From Fibrobacter sp. UWB10 (GTDB lineage Bacteria; Fibrobacterota; Fibrobacteria; Fibrobacterales; Fibrobacteraceae): a DNA stretch of 64,000 nt. Both the position numbers and the translations under genes were made by a program. How positions within the stretch are numbered: the first letter of the stretch is position 1; the number at the start of each line of letters is the position of its first letter. The stretch lies in NCBI RefSeq assembly GCF_900182935.1, contig NZ_FXUE01000002.1, positions 62,001 through 126,000 on the forward strand, read 5' to 3'. Below are positions 24,365 through 28,944 of the stretch, one piece after another. A model generated the notes under the pieces. It was given only the letters and a program-made list of their open reading frames with translations, was not told the origin of the DNA and searched no databases.

Positions 24365-25663
24365 GTGCTTTCAAATCTCTTTCTTCAGTTGACTCACATT
24401 GAGTTGCTCATCTCTTATCCAGTCAAGGATATTCTGACTCTAATTAAGCGTGATCCGCGCTTTACGGTCAAGGTCCTTAATGATATTTACTTTGAGGATT
24501 CGTTTGTAGATGAAGGCATTCACCGCTTGATCATGAATAACGTGGTGAACTGGCTCTATGAAAGGGGCGAAAATCCGGACGAATTTGTGCAGAAGATCAT
24601 TCAGCGCTGCGCATCTTTCGAAGCCGTCCCTGCACGTAGCGTGCTTCGCTCTTACCTCCCGTATGTTTCTCAGTTCTATGCGACTGAAGACGTCCGTCAG
24701 CTCTGCCTCGATATTATCCCGAAGCGCTATCCGTTGCTCACGAACTCGAAGTTCCTCCGTCGTGAACTGGTGGATGGCTTCCGCAAAGAATACTTCACCT
24801 ACCGTTTCGATTCTCCGGGCATGCTGATTACGAACCCCATGCGCTGGTTCAACGGCTTGGTGCAGTTGGGTCCCATTTTCTTGAACACGCCTCAGTACGA
24901 ATTGATCGAATACAAGGCAAGCCAGACCTCGTTTGTTGAAGCACTTGAAAACAGAGTCCCGGCTGAAGTTCGTGATGATGGTTGTGTCTATGTGAACGGT
25001 CGCCAGGTCGGTAAGTACATGACCTTTGGTGATTGCCTTGCCGAATATGGCCTTGAATGGGAATTTGAAGCCGAAAAGAAGATGGCTTGCATTCGCGCTA
25101 CCGAAGACGTTATCGACGAAAAGGTGGGTGCAGTCCTGATTCATAAGGGTTGCTATTACGGCGCACCGGCTAGCGTGGTCTACTTTGATTACAAGGCCAA
25201 CGTGGTCGCACCGGAACCGTTCAACAAGCTCATGAGCGCAGTCGTTAAGCAGGAATTCGATTCTTGGGAACCCATCCAGAAGGCTCAGGAACAGCTCCTT
25301 GAAGCAATGAACGACTCCGTAACAATCATCTACTACAAGAGCGATGATTCTATCTCGGTGAACAACAAACACTTGATGCGCAACGTGCCTGCTCGTATTC
25401 TCCGCAACTTGCTGCGTGAATACAGCGCCACTGGTCGTGAAGAATTTGAAAACCGTGAATTCAAGCGTGACCCGTCCATTTGCATGGACCCGCTGCGTCC
25501 GAATTTCGAAAGCCGTTTGAACCGCGTGATTGCTCATATCAACGGTTCTGACGATCCGGAACATCCGTCTGAAGGCGTTAAGAAGTTCTTCGAAATTGAA
25601 CGTCACCGCCGCGGTGGTTTCCGTTTTGTTCCGAAGTGCAAGATCATTTTCCGCGAAGAGTAA
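24365..25663 (+). CDS. Unknown conserved-type protein with winged-helix-like C-terminus
   Basis: 432 residues; no family recognised. The start is GTG with GAGG five bases upstream. Residues 1-130 are helical (ILTLIKRDPRFTVKVLNDI, IHRLIMNNVVNWLYERG); the middle holds short motifs such as YVNGRQVGKYMTFGDCLAEYG. The final 95 residues follow the plan of an OmpR-type winged helix: a short beta hairpin (ISVNNKHLMRNV), a helix ARILRNLLREY, a second segment EEFENREFK, a long helix NFESRLNRVIAHIN and a closing wing ERHRRGGFRFV. That suggests nucleic-acid binding, but no receiver domain is present. The codon use is that of a highly expressed gene, so it is unlikely to be a minor accessory gene. It is followed by the candidate small RNA. 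Confidence 0.6.
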   Translation: MLSNLFLQLTHIELLISYPVKDILTLIKRDPRFTVKVLNDIYFEDSFVDEGIHRLIMNNVVNWLYERGENPDEFVQKIIQRCASFEAVPARSVLRSYLPYVSQFYATEDVRQLCLDIIPKRYPLLTNSKFLRRELVDGFRKEYFTYRFDSPGMLITNPMRWFNGLVQLGPIFLNTPQYELIEYKASQTSFVEALENRVPAEVRDDGCVYVNGRQVGKYMTFGDCLAEYGLEWEFEAEKKMACIRATEDVIDEKVGAVLIHKGCYYGAPASVVYFDYKANVVAPEPFNKLMSAVVKQEFDSWEPIQKAQEQLLEAMNDSVTIIYYKSDDSISVNNKHLMRNVPARILRNLLREYSATGREEFENREFKRDPSICMDPLRPNFESRLNRVIAHINGSDDPEHPSEGVKKFFEIERHRRGGFRFVPKCKIIFREE

Positions 25664-25748
25664 ACGCTAGTTTACCAAGTTCGAAAATGTAATCGAAACG
25701 GTTTTAGAAAATAAGAAATTTGGTAGTTCCTACGGGCAAATAAATGGG

Positions 25749-25893
25749 TATATTTGGTATCGTGAACGGTAGAAGGGTAAATCCTGAAACGACACTATCA
25801 TTGCTCCCCTCCTGATAGGTTCAAGGTTCCACATACCGATTCATATTTTCTCCTTCTTAGGAAAGGCTCCTCGTTAGAGGGGCCTTTCTTTCA
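25749..25893 (+). ncRNA. Candidate structured small RNA with anti-Shine-Dalgarno-like loop
   Basis: This stretch lies between two converging genes, so it cannot be a leader of either. It begins with a TATATTTG promoter-like box (25749-25756). GGTAT/GTG/AAC (about 25756-25768) pairs with GTT/CAC/ATACC (about 25826-25838) as an 11-bp closing stem with single bulges. Inside, CTATCA (25795-25800) pairs with TGATAG (25813-25818), leaving the 12-base loop TTGCTCCCCTCC, whose CCCCTCC core is complementary to Shine-Dalgarno sequences. The segment ends in a 12-bp terminator (25861-25888). No known RNA family was recognised: SRP, tmRNA, 6S and RNase P signatures were looked for without success. The exact ends are uncertain. 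Confidence 0.5.
25861..25893 (+). terminator. Terminator of the candidate small RNA
   Basis: Stem GAAAGGCTCCTC pairs with GAGGGGCCTTTC across a GTTA loop (12 bp, one G-T pair) and is followed by TTTC. It also ends any read-through from the gene stopping at 25663. Confidence 0.85.
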
Positions 25894-25919
25894 TTTGGTT
25901 CTATAGAACCAAATGAAAG
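25888..25919. repeat. 32-base perfect palindrome
   Basis: The arm CTTTCATTTGGTTCTA (25888-25903) is followed at once by its exact reverse complement (25904-25919). It shares its first base with the end of the terminator stem and runs straight into the hairpin repeat at 25920. It may be a DNA cruciform, a dyad site or the edge of a mobile repeat. Confidence 0.9.
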
Positions 25920-26154: not shown

Positions 26155-28944
26155 CTATTTTTGAGAGATGACTTCGACGGTTAATTTGTTGAAGGCGAGT
26201 TTGCCGCCGTCGCGGATTTCGAGTGCCGCGCGGAAGGTTGTGTCGTTTTTCTTGAACGGTTCAAGAACTGGTGTGAATTTGTTCTTGAGTAAGCCTTCGA
26301 CTTCTTCGTCGGTGAATTTGCGCTGGTAGAATACTTGCGGAATGCCAAAGCCACATTGCGGGTTCATGCACACGTAAGCGGCGTGTGTAGCTTCGTTTGC
26401 GCCTTGGCCCGATGTACCGCTGCGGAAACGCAATTGATCGCCACAAACGGGGCAGGGGAGGTTCCTGCGCATGAATTCAAAAACGGTGCGGCCCTTGTCG
26501 GCGCCTTCGCCCCATTTGAGGCGGGCGGCAAAATCAGACCCCTTCTTGCTCTTGAAATCTTGAATCAGCGGCGTTTCGCCGTTAGTAAAGAGTTCGCCTA
26601 TTTCGGTGGTGGTAAGCGTGTGGCCCGCAACGGTTTTGAATAGCGTGAATTTGCAATCGACGCCATCGGTTGCATTGGTGCAGAATAAGGCGTTCTTGTT
26701 TTCTTCGAGAGTGGCGCCGCAAAGCGGACACTTGTATTCTGTTTTCTGTCCGTGGAATTTGCCGTCGCTTTCGAATTCAAACTGAATATTGAAATCTTTA
26801 TCGACTGAAAGCTTTGCTGAAAATTCAGTGCCTTTCTTGCTCTTGAAACCTGAAACAGGTCCGACAGTTTCGCCGGCAAGTAATTTCTTGATTTCGGCGT
26901 GAGCAAGCATCTTGCCTGCCACTGTGTGCCCGAATCGGAATCCACATTCGGTCTTGGGGCACACGTAGCCCCAGGGGGCTACATCGAGCGCGCTCCCGCA
27001 TTTCGGGCATGGAATGCTTTCGGTTACGGTTTCGCGCTCGAACTGGCAGCCGTATCGCGCATGCAAATCGGTGAACAGCTGCTTCACGTATTCAACGATT
27101 CCGTCGCGGAATTCAGCGGGTGCAAGCACGCCTTTTTCGACCTGAGAAAGTTTGTATTCCCATTCGCCTGTCATTTCGGGCGACTTGACTTTTTCATCCA
27201 TCAAGGCGATGACTTCGCGCCCGCGGGCGGTACTCACTAAGTAATTCTTTTGCGCTTCAATGAAGCCGCGTTTCTTGAGTGTTTCGATAATGCCTGCCTG
27301 CGTTGCCGGCGTACCCAAGCCGCGGTCTTTCATAGCTTCGGCAAGTTCTTCGTTTTCGATTTGCTTACCGGCCGTCTTCATGGCGGCAAGGAGCGTTGCC
27401 TCGGTATAGTATTTAGGCTTGCTCTTCTTTTTCTTTTGCAATTCGACGCTATCGAAGGGCGCGCTGTCGCCGGCGTTCCATTCGGGGAATGCTTCGACCA
27501 AATTCGTGATATCGTCGCTGTCGCCTTTGCCTTCGGCGTCCTTGGATTCGGCGTCGCCTTTTTTGCCCTTCGCTTTTTTCTTGTCGTCTTTCGTCTCTTT
27601 GACGAGTGCGCGGAAACCGAGATCTTCGTTGCGCTTGAGCTTCAAACGGAATAATTCTCTCGTCTCTCGTCTCTCGTCTTTCGCCTCAAGAATCACCTCC
27701 ATTTCGTCCCACACGTACGGCTTTAGCCACGCCTGCACAAAGCGTTCCTTGGCCAGGTCGTAAATCTTCTGCTCCATTTCGGGCAAATCGTTTGGAGCTT
27801 CGCCGGTGGGGATAATGGCAAAGTGGTCAGTCACCTTGCTTGAATTGATGAAGACAAAATTTTCATCGAAGGAACGGAAAATCTTTTGCTGCTCGGGGGT
27901 CGCCAATTTTTGCGCGAGGGCGAATGCCTCTTGCTTCATGGTGTCGGGCAGGTACTGCGAATCGGTACGCGGGTATGTCAGCAGTTTCTTTTCGTACAGA
28001 TTCTGGGCGCAATCTAGAACTTGCTGGGCGCTGTATTTAAAACGCTTGTTGCCCTCTTTCTGCAATTCGGTCAGGTCGAATGGTTTTTGCGGAAACTGCT
28101 TTTTCTGCTGGTTATCGATTTTAGCTATAGTCGCTTCGGCAGGAGGAACACAACGCGCTACAACCGAATTCGCTTCCGATTCTTTTTCAAAGACGGCTAC
28201 TTTAAGGTTCGCTTCGCCCTTGGCGTCTTCTTCGCGCTTGACAAATTGGGCCTGGAACCCTTTCCATGTGCCCACGACGCTGTAGTAAAAGAGTTCCTTG
28301 AATTGCTCCACGATGGTGTCGCGTTCTACAATCAAATTGAGTGTAGGCGTTTGCACACGGCCCACTGAAATCATCTTGCCGCGCCCTGCCGTAAGCGTGT
28401 AGGCGCGTGTCGCGTTCAGACCTACCATCCAGTCGGCTCGCTGTCTTAAACGGGCTGCATAACTCAAATTCACGCGTTGGGTGGCATCTTCCAGGTTCTT
28501 CCAGGCTTTGTCCAAGTCCTTGGCTACATAGCTGTTCACCCACAGGCGCTTAATGGTTTTTTGCTTAAAAGAGGGCGTGTAGTCGAGCACTAGGTCAAAA
28601 ATCAAGTTACCTTCGCGGCCGGCATCCGCGCCGTTCACCAGCACGTCAGCCTGCTCCATCATCTGTCGCACCACATTCAGCTGTTTCTTGGTGCTCTCGA
28701 TTTCCATGAGCTTGAACTTTTCAGGGAGCAGGGGCAAATTCGAAAGCCGCCAGCCGCCTTCGAATCCGGGGTAGGCGTCTAACGGTGCAAGGGTAATCAG
28801 GTGACCTACGCACCAGGTAATGCAGTGGTTCTTACCAATCAGGCATCCGTCGCCTTGGGTGAATTTTTCCCCTTCCAACCGCTCCAACATAGGGCGGTAG
28901 TGTTGGTTTGCAACAGACGGTTTTTCGGCGACAAGCAGGATCAC
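26155..28944 (-). CDS. topB: DNA topoisomerase III (type IA)
   Basis: 929-residue type IA topoisomerase that passes single strands to decatenate DNA. TOPRIM motifs are LVAEKPSVAN (1-15) and NGADAGREGNLIF (near 105); GKMISVGRVQTPTL near 190; the active-site Tyr is in LLTYPRTDSQYLP (near 325). E. coli TopB has about 650 residues. The extra length here is a charged low-complexity insert near 425-480 (DDKKKAKGKKGDAE) and a C-terminal array of three modules of about 80 residues. Two of these carry GFKSKKGTEFSAKL / DFKSKKGSDFAARL, with Cys pairs (CPKCG, CPLCG, CPVCG) as in zinc ribbons. The start is GTG, overlapping the stop of the upstream gene by four bases (GTGA). Confidence 0.95.
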   Translation of the reverse strand: MILLVAEKPSVANQHYRPMLERLEGEKFTQGDGCLIGKNHCITWCVGHLITLAPLDAYPGFEGGWRLSNLPLLPEKFKLMEIESTKKQLNVVRQMMEQADVLVNGADAGREGNLIFDLVLDYTPSFKQKTIKRLWVNSYVAKDLDKAWKNLEDATQRVNLSYAARLRQRADWMVGLNATRAYTLTAGRGKMISVGRVQTPTLNLIVERDTIVEQFKELFYYSVVGTWKGFQAQFVKREEDAKGEANLKVAVFEKESEANSVVARCVPPAEATIAKIDNQQKKQFPQKPFDLTELQKEGNKRFKYSAQQVLDCAQNLYEKKLLTYPRTDSQYLPDTMKQEAFALAQKLATPEQQKIFRSFDENFVFINSSKVTDHFAIIPTGEAPNDLPEMEQKIYDLAKERFVQAWLKPYVWDEMEVILEAKDERRETRELFRLKLKRNEDLGFRALVKETKDDKKKAKGKKGDAESKDAEGKGDSDDITNLVEAFPEWNAGDSAPFDSVELQKKKKSKPKYYTEATLLAAMKTAGKQIENEELAEAMKDRGLGTPATQAGIIETLKKRGFIEAQKNYLVSTARGREVIALMDEKVKSPEMTGEWEYKLSQVEKGVLAPAEFRDGIVEYVKQLFTDLHARYGCQFERETVTESIPCPKCGSALDVAPWGYVCPKTECGFRFGHTVAGKMLAHAEIKKLLAGETVGPVSGFKSKKGTEFSAKLSVDKDFNIQFEFESDGKFHGQKTEYKCPLCGATLEENKNALFCTNATDGVDCKFTLFKTVAGHTLTTTEIGELFTNGETPLIQDFKSKKGSDFAARLKWGEGADKGRTVFEFMRRNLPCPVCGDQLRFRSGTSGQGANEATHAAYVCMNPQCGFGIPQVFYQRKFTDEEVEGLLKNKFTPVLEPFKKNDTTFRAALEIRDGGKLAFNKLTVEVISQK
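27654..27688. repeat. Heptanucleotide repeat inside topB
   Basis: Consecutive 7-base units on the + strand: ATTCTCT, CGTCTCT, CGTCTCT, CGTCTTT, CGCCTCA. It encodes the DERRETRE stretch of TopB. Two further units (CGTCTTT, CGTCTCT) lie at 27585-27598. The same heptamer is seen between genes at 60971. Confidence 0.8.

Follow-up and report, generated by a model that had tools for sequence, protein, structure and literature searches.

A structured RNA conserved across the Fibrobacteraceae, with two exposed segments that resemble anti-Shine-Dalgarno sequences

The window analysed here is a 64,000-nt stretch of the genome of Fibrobacter sp. UWB10 (contig NZ_FXUE01000002.1, positions 62,001 to 126,000), and at window positions 25749-25893 (+) it carries the gene for an RNA of about 130 nt whose structure is kept by selection, the comparative evidence on this point being decisive. 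By the tests made, the RNA is a new family, outside Rfam and neither LhrC nor NfeR1. As to its role, the reading that we favour on balance, with modest confidence and from sequence, is that it would be an Hfq-independent, trans-acting small RNA (sRNA) blocking the initiation of translation, like LhrC or NfeR1 in its action; we infer that it is expressed, pairs with its targets in the cell and represses a regulon. The locus had been singled out in an original prediction, made from the letters alone, as a small RNA unit between converging genes and perhaps an undescribed Fibrobacter regulator. The unit was borne out by its neighbours (a 432-aa open reading frame (ORF), 24365-25663 (+), and a topoisomerase gene, 26155-28944 (−), converge on it), by folding (z-score −2.7 relative to dinucleotide shuffles, 2/200) and by the comparison with relatives. 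It does appear to be undescribed, but the scope given to it was too narrow, as this is an RNA of the Fibrobacteraceae with its 11 genera.

Of 60 genomes of the genus Fibrobacter, 57 gave a match in a DNA search, and covariance models (R1 and the broader R2) found the RNA in 108 of 111 Fibrobacteraceae genomes, belonging to 11 genera. The three family genomes with no match are 62, 71 and 81% complete. Outside the family, the covariance model search covered 57 genomes of the phylum and gave no match in any of them, and the RNA was not found in phage records. There is one copy per genome, the exception being the tandem pairs of genus g33 (G152 and G167). These tandem copies lie about 130 nt apart (L177 of G152, 924-1025 and 1157-1265; also G167:C113), and in the second copy the loop has diverged, to CUCCCCUAUUGG, which offers a natural example of change in what we describe below as a candidate seed.

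The predicted fold (all coordinates on the + strand) begins with a closing stem, P1, in which 25762-25771 (unpaired probability 0.02) pairs with 25834-25844. This stem had been put at 11 bp; it is present, but with 10 bp and one bulge, and both-side changes are found in all of its seven outer and four inner pairs. Within it lies the element GGUAAAUCCU (25776-25785), near-invariant in the family consensus and made up of P2a (GG), the bulge UAAAU and P2b (CCU), the bulge forming an asymmetric interruption of the hairpin (GG-UAAAU-CCU); the 3′ partner of P2b and P2a, AGGUUCC, is at 25824-25830. The hairpin P3 (5′ arm 25791-25800, 3′ arm 25813-25821; these arms, like the partner of P2, were assigned by folding and pair alignment) contains the predicted CTATCA/TGATAG pairing at 25795-25800 and 25813-25818, with three further pairs beneath a bulge, and it carries the 12-nt apical loop UUGCUCCCCUCC at 25801-25812 (unpaired probability 0.96), given in the original prediction as TTGCTCCCCTCC. 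After the closing stem comes a 14-nt unpaired linker, AUUUUCUCCUUCUU (25845-25858, unpaired probability 0.99), which is the most conserved part of the RNA and had been missed, and then an intrinsic terminator found by terminator scan (25859-25890), with the loop GUUA and a U-rich tail, whose stem is of 14 bp and not, as first thought, 12.

In an alignment of 65 copies fitted to the model, 91.5% of cells are paired, compared with 36-46% when the partners are slid, and both-side changes occur in 21 of the 25 base pairs. As an alignment fitted in this way is biased towards structure, three further looks were taken. In a plain MAFFT alignment, not fitted to structure, double changes are present in 12 of 20 predicted pairs. 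When copies were anchored on their conserved ends, GTGA occurred with CATA in 27 copies and GTTG with CAATA in 36, with zero exceptions. Finally, parsimony on a tree of the neighbouring protein counted 56 double-change events, a figure that reuses the model-fitted alignment, against 0-7 for slid partners. Compensating changes in the stems across relatives, which had been proposed as a check on the prediction, are what we find. In divergent Fibrobacter copies (L050, L051, L054, L080 and L081) the hairpin sequence is largely replaced and the rod and a CCCUC loop are retained. It should be noted that RNAalifold, given the plain MAFFT alignment, did not recover the closing stem, on account of indels, and suggested a putative 4-bp hairpin within the invariant block, where the lack of any variation leaves no room for covariation.

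Neither the loop nor the linker is paired, both rank with the best-conserved segments of the RNA, and we treat them as candidate seeds 1 and 2. The loop core CUCCCCUCC is conserved family-wide, so that the C-rich loop of the prediction behaves as expected for a seed, and in the 23 copies from genera other than Fibrobacter the conservation of CUCCCCUCCUG is 95% or more. The linker block TTTTCTCCTTCTTAGGAA (18 nt) is identical in all 49 Fibrobacter copies examined and is absent from other genera, in which the terminator usually follows directly on a short U-rich stretch. Together with its flanks the loop is the reverse complement of AGGAGGGGAGCAAUG, which reads as a Shine-Dalgarno (SD) sequence, a spacer and AUG; an anti-SD role for the loop is, on this complementarity, plausible. 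The linker is the complement of AAGAAGGAGAAAAU, and with its flanks of UUCCUAAGAAGGAGAAAAUAUG, its reverse complement AAGGAGAAAAUAUG being an SD sequence followed by a start codon. Pairing with the AUG is not universal, since many copies have CAAUAU in place of the linker's CAU.

A search of the whole window against Rfam 15 gave no match at the gathering score, so that the Rfam hit which would have counted against the prediction was not obtained; the earlier remark had been that none of the standard housekeeping RNAs fits. At relaxed thresholds only low-scoring matches appeared, mostly via the terminator or on the opposite strand; the sub-threshold matches to BTnc231, mmgR and RsaE were judged to be due to chance. 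BTnc231 of Bacteroides (RF04180) shares CCCCUCC and a terminator with our RNA, but the match runs only via the terminator or the opposite strand and reaches 27.9 bits where 80.4 are required, while the sole match to RsaE/RoxS (RF01820) scores 17 bits against 79 and is also on the opposite strand. LhrC of Listeria monocytogenes pairs with the SD sequence of the mRNA for the surface protein LapB (lapB), Hfq being dispensable, is multicopy and has UCCC in its terminator loop as well (PMC4132741). The Fibrobacteraceae RNA differs in being single-copy, in its bulged hairpin with GGUAAAUCCU and in coming from another phylum, and there is no sign of homology; where LhrC is defined by CUCCC...UUUU at three sites and several gene copies, here we find one copy with motif-like segments at two sites. 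The UCCC-motif sRNAs cited in the same paper (RsaE/RoxS, RNAIII and SprD of Staphylococcus aureus and FsrA of Bacillus subtilis) likewise have an unpaired, C-rich motif, with which they block SD sequences. NfeR1, or alpha-r14 (mmgR, RF00519), of rhizobia has unpaired anti-SD motifs and variable stems and acts on translation-initiation regions, including those of periplasmic transporter proteins (PMC10746234). Our RNA resembles it in the unpaired position of its anti-SD motifs and in its variable stems, but NfeR1 has three hairpins with identical CCUCCUCCC motifs whereas here there is one loop and one linker with unlike motifs, and the score against RF00519 is 21.9 bits, 41 being required. In the open-access papers searched we found no report of small RNAs or regulatory RNA in Fibrobacter, and a large study of gene expression in F. 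succinogenes S85 says nothing of intergenic or non-coding RNAs.

The promoter-like sequence of the original prediction was located at 25749-25756 (TATATTTG), of which 25749-25754 is a conserved −10 element, TATATT, with T1, A2, T5 and T6 invariant in 49 copies. An exact TATATT lies no more than 22 nt upstream of the RNA in 53 of the 65 family copies (5.5% of shuffles), and a sigma-70 scan at the locus found no good −35 hexamer. Transcription is predicted to start at 25760-25762, that is 6-8 nt past the −10 element and where the closing stem begins. At the other end the terminator scan gave two sites where 0.3 were expected, and a T-rich tail follows the RNA in 63 of 65 copies. The sequence signals thus point to a promoter and an intrinsic terminator of its own, as is usual for the sRNA class, and the structure is conserved without a conserved ORF; in most copies the RNA would appear to be an independent unit. 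The only overlapping short frame noticed on the + strand (23 aa, ATG at 25744) was rejected as coding because its ATG is upstream of the −10 element and absent in close relatives. A transcript from the opposite strand was likewise rejected, as the terminator tail and the −10 element both indicate the + strand, and the SD-ATG look-alikes on the opposite strand belong to very short, non-conserved frames.

In the mechanism that we favour, the covarying stem and bulged hairpin would present the C-rich loop and, in the genus Fibrobacter, a second pyrimidine-rich seed would be left single-stranded between the stem and the terminator. Each of the two seeds would pair with translation-initiation regions (SD and start codon) and exclude ribosomes without the help of Hfq; a search for PF17209 found no Hfq in this genome (G000). 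The main targets would be mRNAs with a strong, purine-rich ribosome-binding site (RBS), enriched in Fibrobacter for exported proteins and lipoproteins. All 20 near-complementary sites read from the genus (1-3 mismatches, picked by sequence alone) end at a start codon, and 18 have open frames of at least 128 codons within the stretch read; their location at start sites is partly built in as the search pattern contains SD and ATG, the open frames are not. Their duplex energies are −21.7 to −28.7 kcal/mol, and seven of them are the same gene among about nine distinct genes, five with export signals. That gene encodes an exported protein which, from our own reading of its sequence, we take to be GLUG-type. 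In this genome its RBS is the best site (L285 / G000:C2:942208-942227 (−); 18 of 20 positions complementary, duplex −26.7 kcal/mol), and the same site is present in six other genomes (G101, G029, G056, G058 and G060, and G102 with 3 mismatches). In an energy scan the linker reached −10 kcal/mol or lower at the start sites of 14.7% of genes compared with 2.1% for upstream and 0.9% for coding control windows. Among 610 ORFs, from about a quarter of the genome, it also paired better with exported than with cytoplasmic start regions (area under the curve (AUC) 0.66, or 0.62 after removal of the effect of the 16S rRNA tail), 23 of the best 40 linker-pairing genes being exported against a background of 25%, and this preference is stronger than the one seen with the 16S tail or with flank-shuffled linkers (0/150). 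The loop shows no clear gene preference beyond that of the 16S tail.

Several observations weigh against an sRNA of this kind. The 20-nt complement of the linker has only one further genomic site with three or fewer mismatches, the GLUG-type RBS, and the 16-nt complement of the loop has, outside the RNA itself, no site with fewer than two; with near-complementary sites so few, no obvious single target accounts for the invariant seeds. We looked for a single unique antisense target without success (one linker site, and for the loop only sites with two mismatches), and an abundant shared leader was rejected, the 12-mer AAGAAGGAGAAA recurring exactly at no more than two further places in this genome. 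The ORF starts and signal peptides behind the exported preference were called by simple heuristics in a quarter of the genome. In addition, G107, whose RNA lacks the linker block, has a similar exported trend (3/150), so that the preference may only reflect strong SD sequences in exported genes and co-evolution of linker and targets is not established. The 16S tail carries much of the same start-site signal, and any anti-SD-like sequence would pair there.

This last point bears on the idea that the RNA is a general mimic of the 16S rRNA 3′ tail, competing with the 30S subunit for all SD sequences and setting translation capacity globally in the manner of a housekeeping RNA. The loop does contain the 16S anti-SD core, CCUCCU, practically every family genome has one copy and the pairing energies track those of the 16S tail (r about 0.7); as such a mimic would have to be about as abundant as ribosomes, and as classes of genes are told apart better by the genus-specific linker than by the 16S tail, we think it improbable. 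Somewhat less doubtful, if still unlikely, is a protein-binding decoy, whose CCCC/CU-rich loop and linker would capture a KH, S1 or cold-shock protein or serve for chaperone docking, with mRNA pairing secondary. An invariant linker of 18 nt is far more conserved than short SD pairing needs, there is no long unique target, and with Hfq missing another chaperone may be needed. Near-complementary sites do, however, sit at start codons, no protein partner is indicated, and there are genera with the RNA that lack the neighbouring protein. About as doubtful, in our opinion, is a bolder form of the sRNA reading, in which the near-universal RNA of an Hfq-less family would act as the master regulator of translation for the exported proteome (lipoproteins, adhesins and fibre-degrading enzymes), the loop being the ancestral seed and the linker a Fibrobacter gain directed at the purine-rich RBS of exported proteins.

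The RNA might instead be a cis-element or 3′-untranslated piece of the upstream 432-aa gene. The same gene is upstream in several genera and adjoins the RNA in the examined genomes that have both, and in G144 (L171) the RNA core begins directly past the stop codon of the gene, leaving no intergenic room for a promoter of its own, so that there it may be made from the same transcript. Five genera (g28, g30, g31, g32 and g34) keep the RNA without the gene, however, and the RNA is therefore not simply part of it; together with the −10 element between gene and RNA in most copies this makes such an origin very improbable. We give slightly less weight still to an RNA of the 6S type, bound to RNA polymerase and missed by the Rfam models in this phylum. 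RF00013 finds no 6S RNA in this genome, and the RNA is a single-copy stem-bulge-loop molecule, but its hairpin is only about 85 nt, the large central bubble is absent, the apical loop is C-rich and conserved, and neither 6S nor 6S-Flavo matches the locus even at an E-value of 10. RF01685 gave no match in G000 either, in a search in which the controls were silent too.

The 432-aa protein has no family match in Pfam or NCBIfam. Its C-terminal third is extremely conserved, and distant relatives occur elsewhere in the phylum. A predicted model (mean predicted local distance difference test (pLDDT) score 81) has a weak resemblance to the H-NOX domain (best Foldseek E-value 0.038, TM 0.53 on the target), and the suggestion of an OmpR-type regulator was dropped as unsupported by Pfam, NCBIfam, PDB sequence or fold searches. 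Immediately past the RNA terminator, at 25887-25919, lies a palindrome, CTTTCATTTGGTTC-TATA-GAACCAAATGAAAG, which probably serves the converging topoisomerase gene as its terminator; in relatives other palindromes stand in its place, followed by a similar GCTCGG-containing sequence.

Members of Fibrobacter are major cellulose degraders of herbivore guts. A near-universal RNA of their family, with defined seeds and one strong candidate target, would be a point of entry to post-transcriptional control in bacteria where Hfq was not found, and seeds as well defined as these make its function directly testable.
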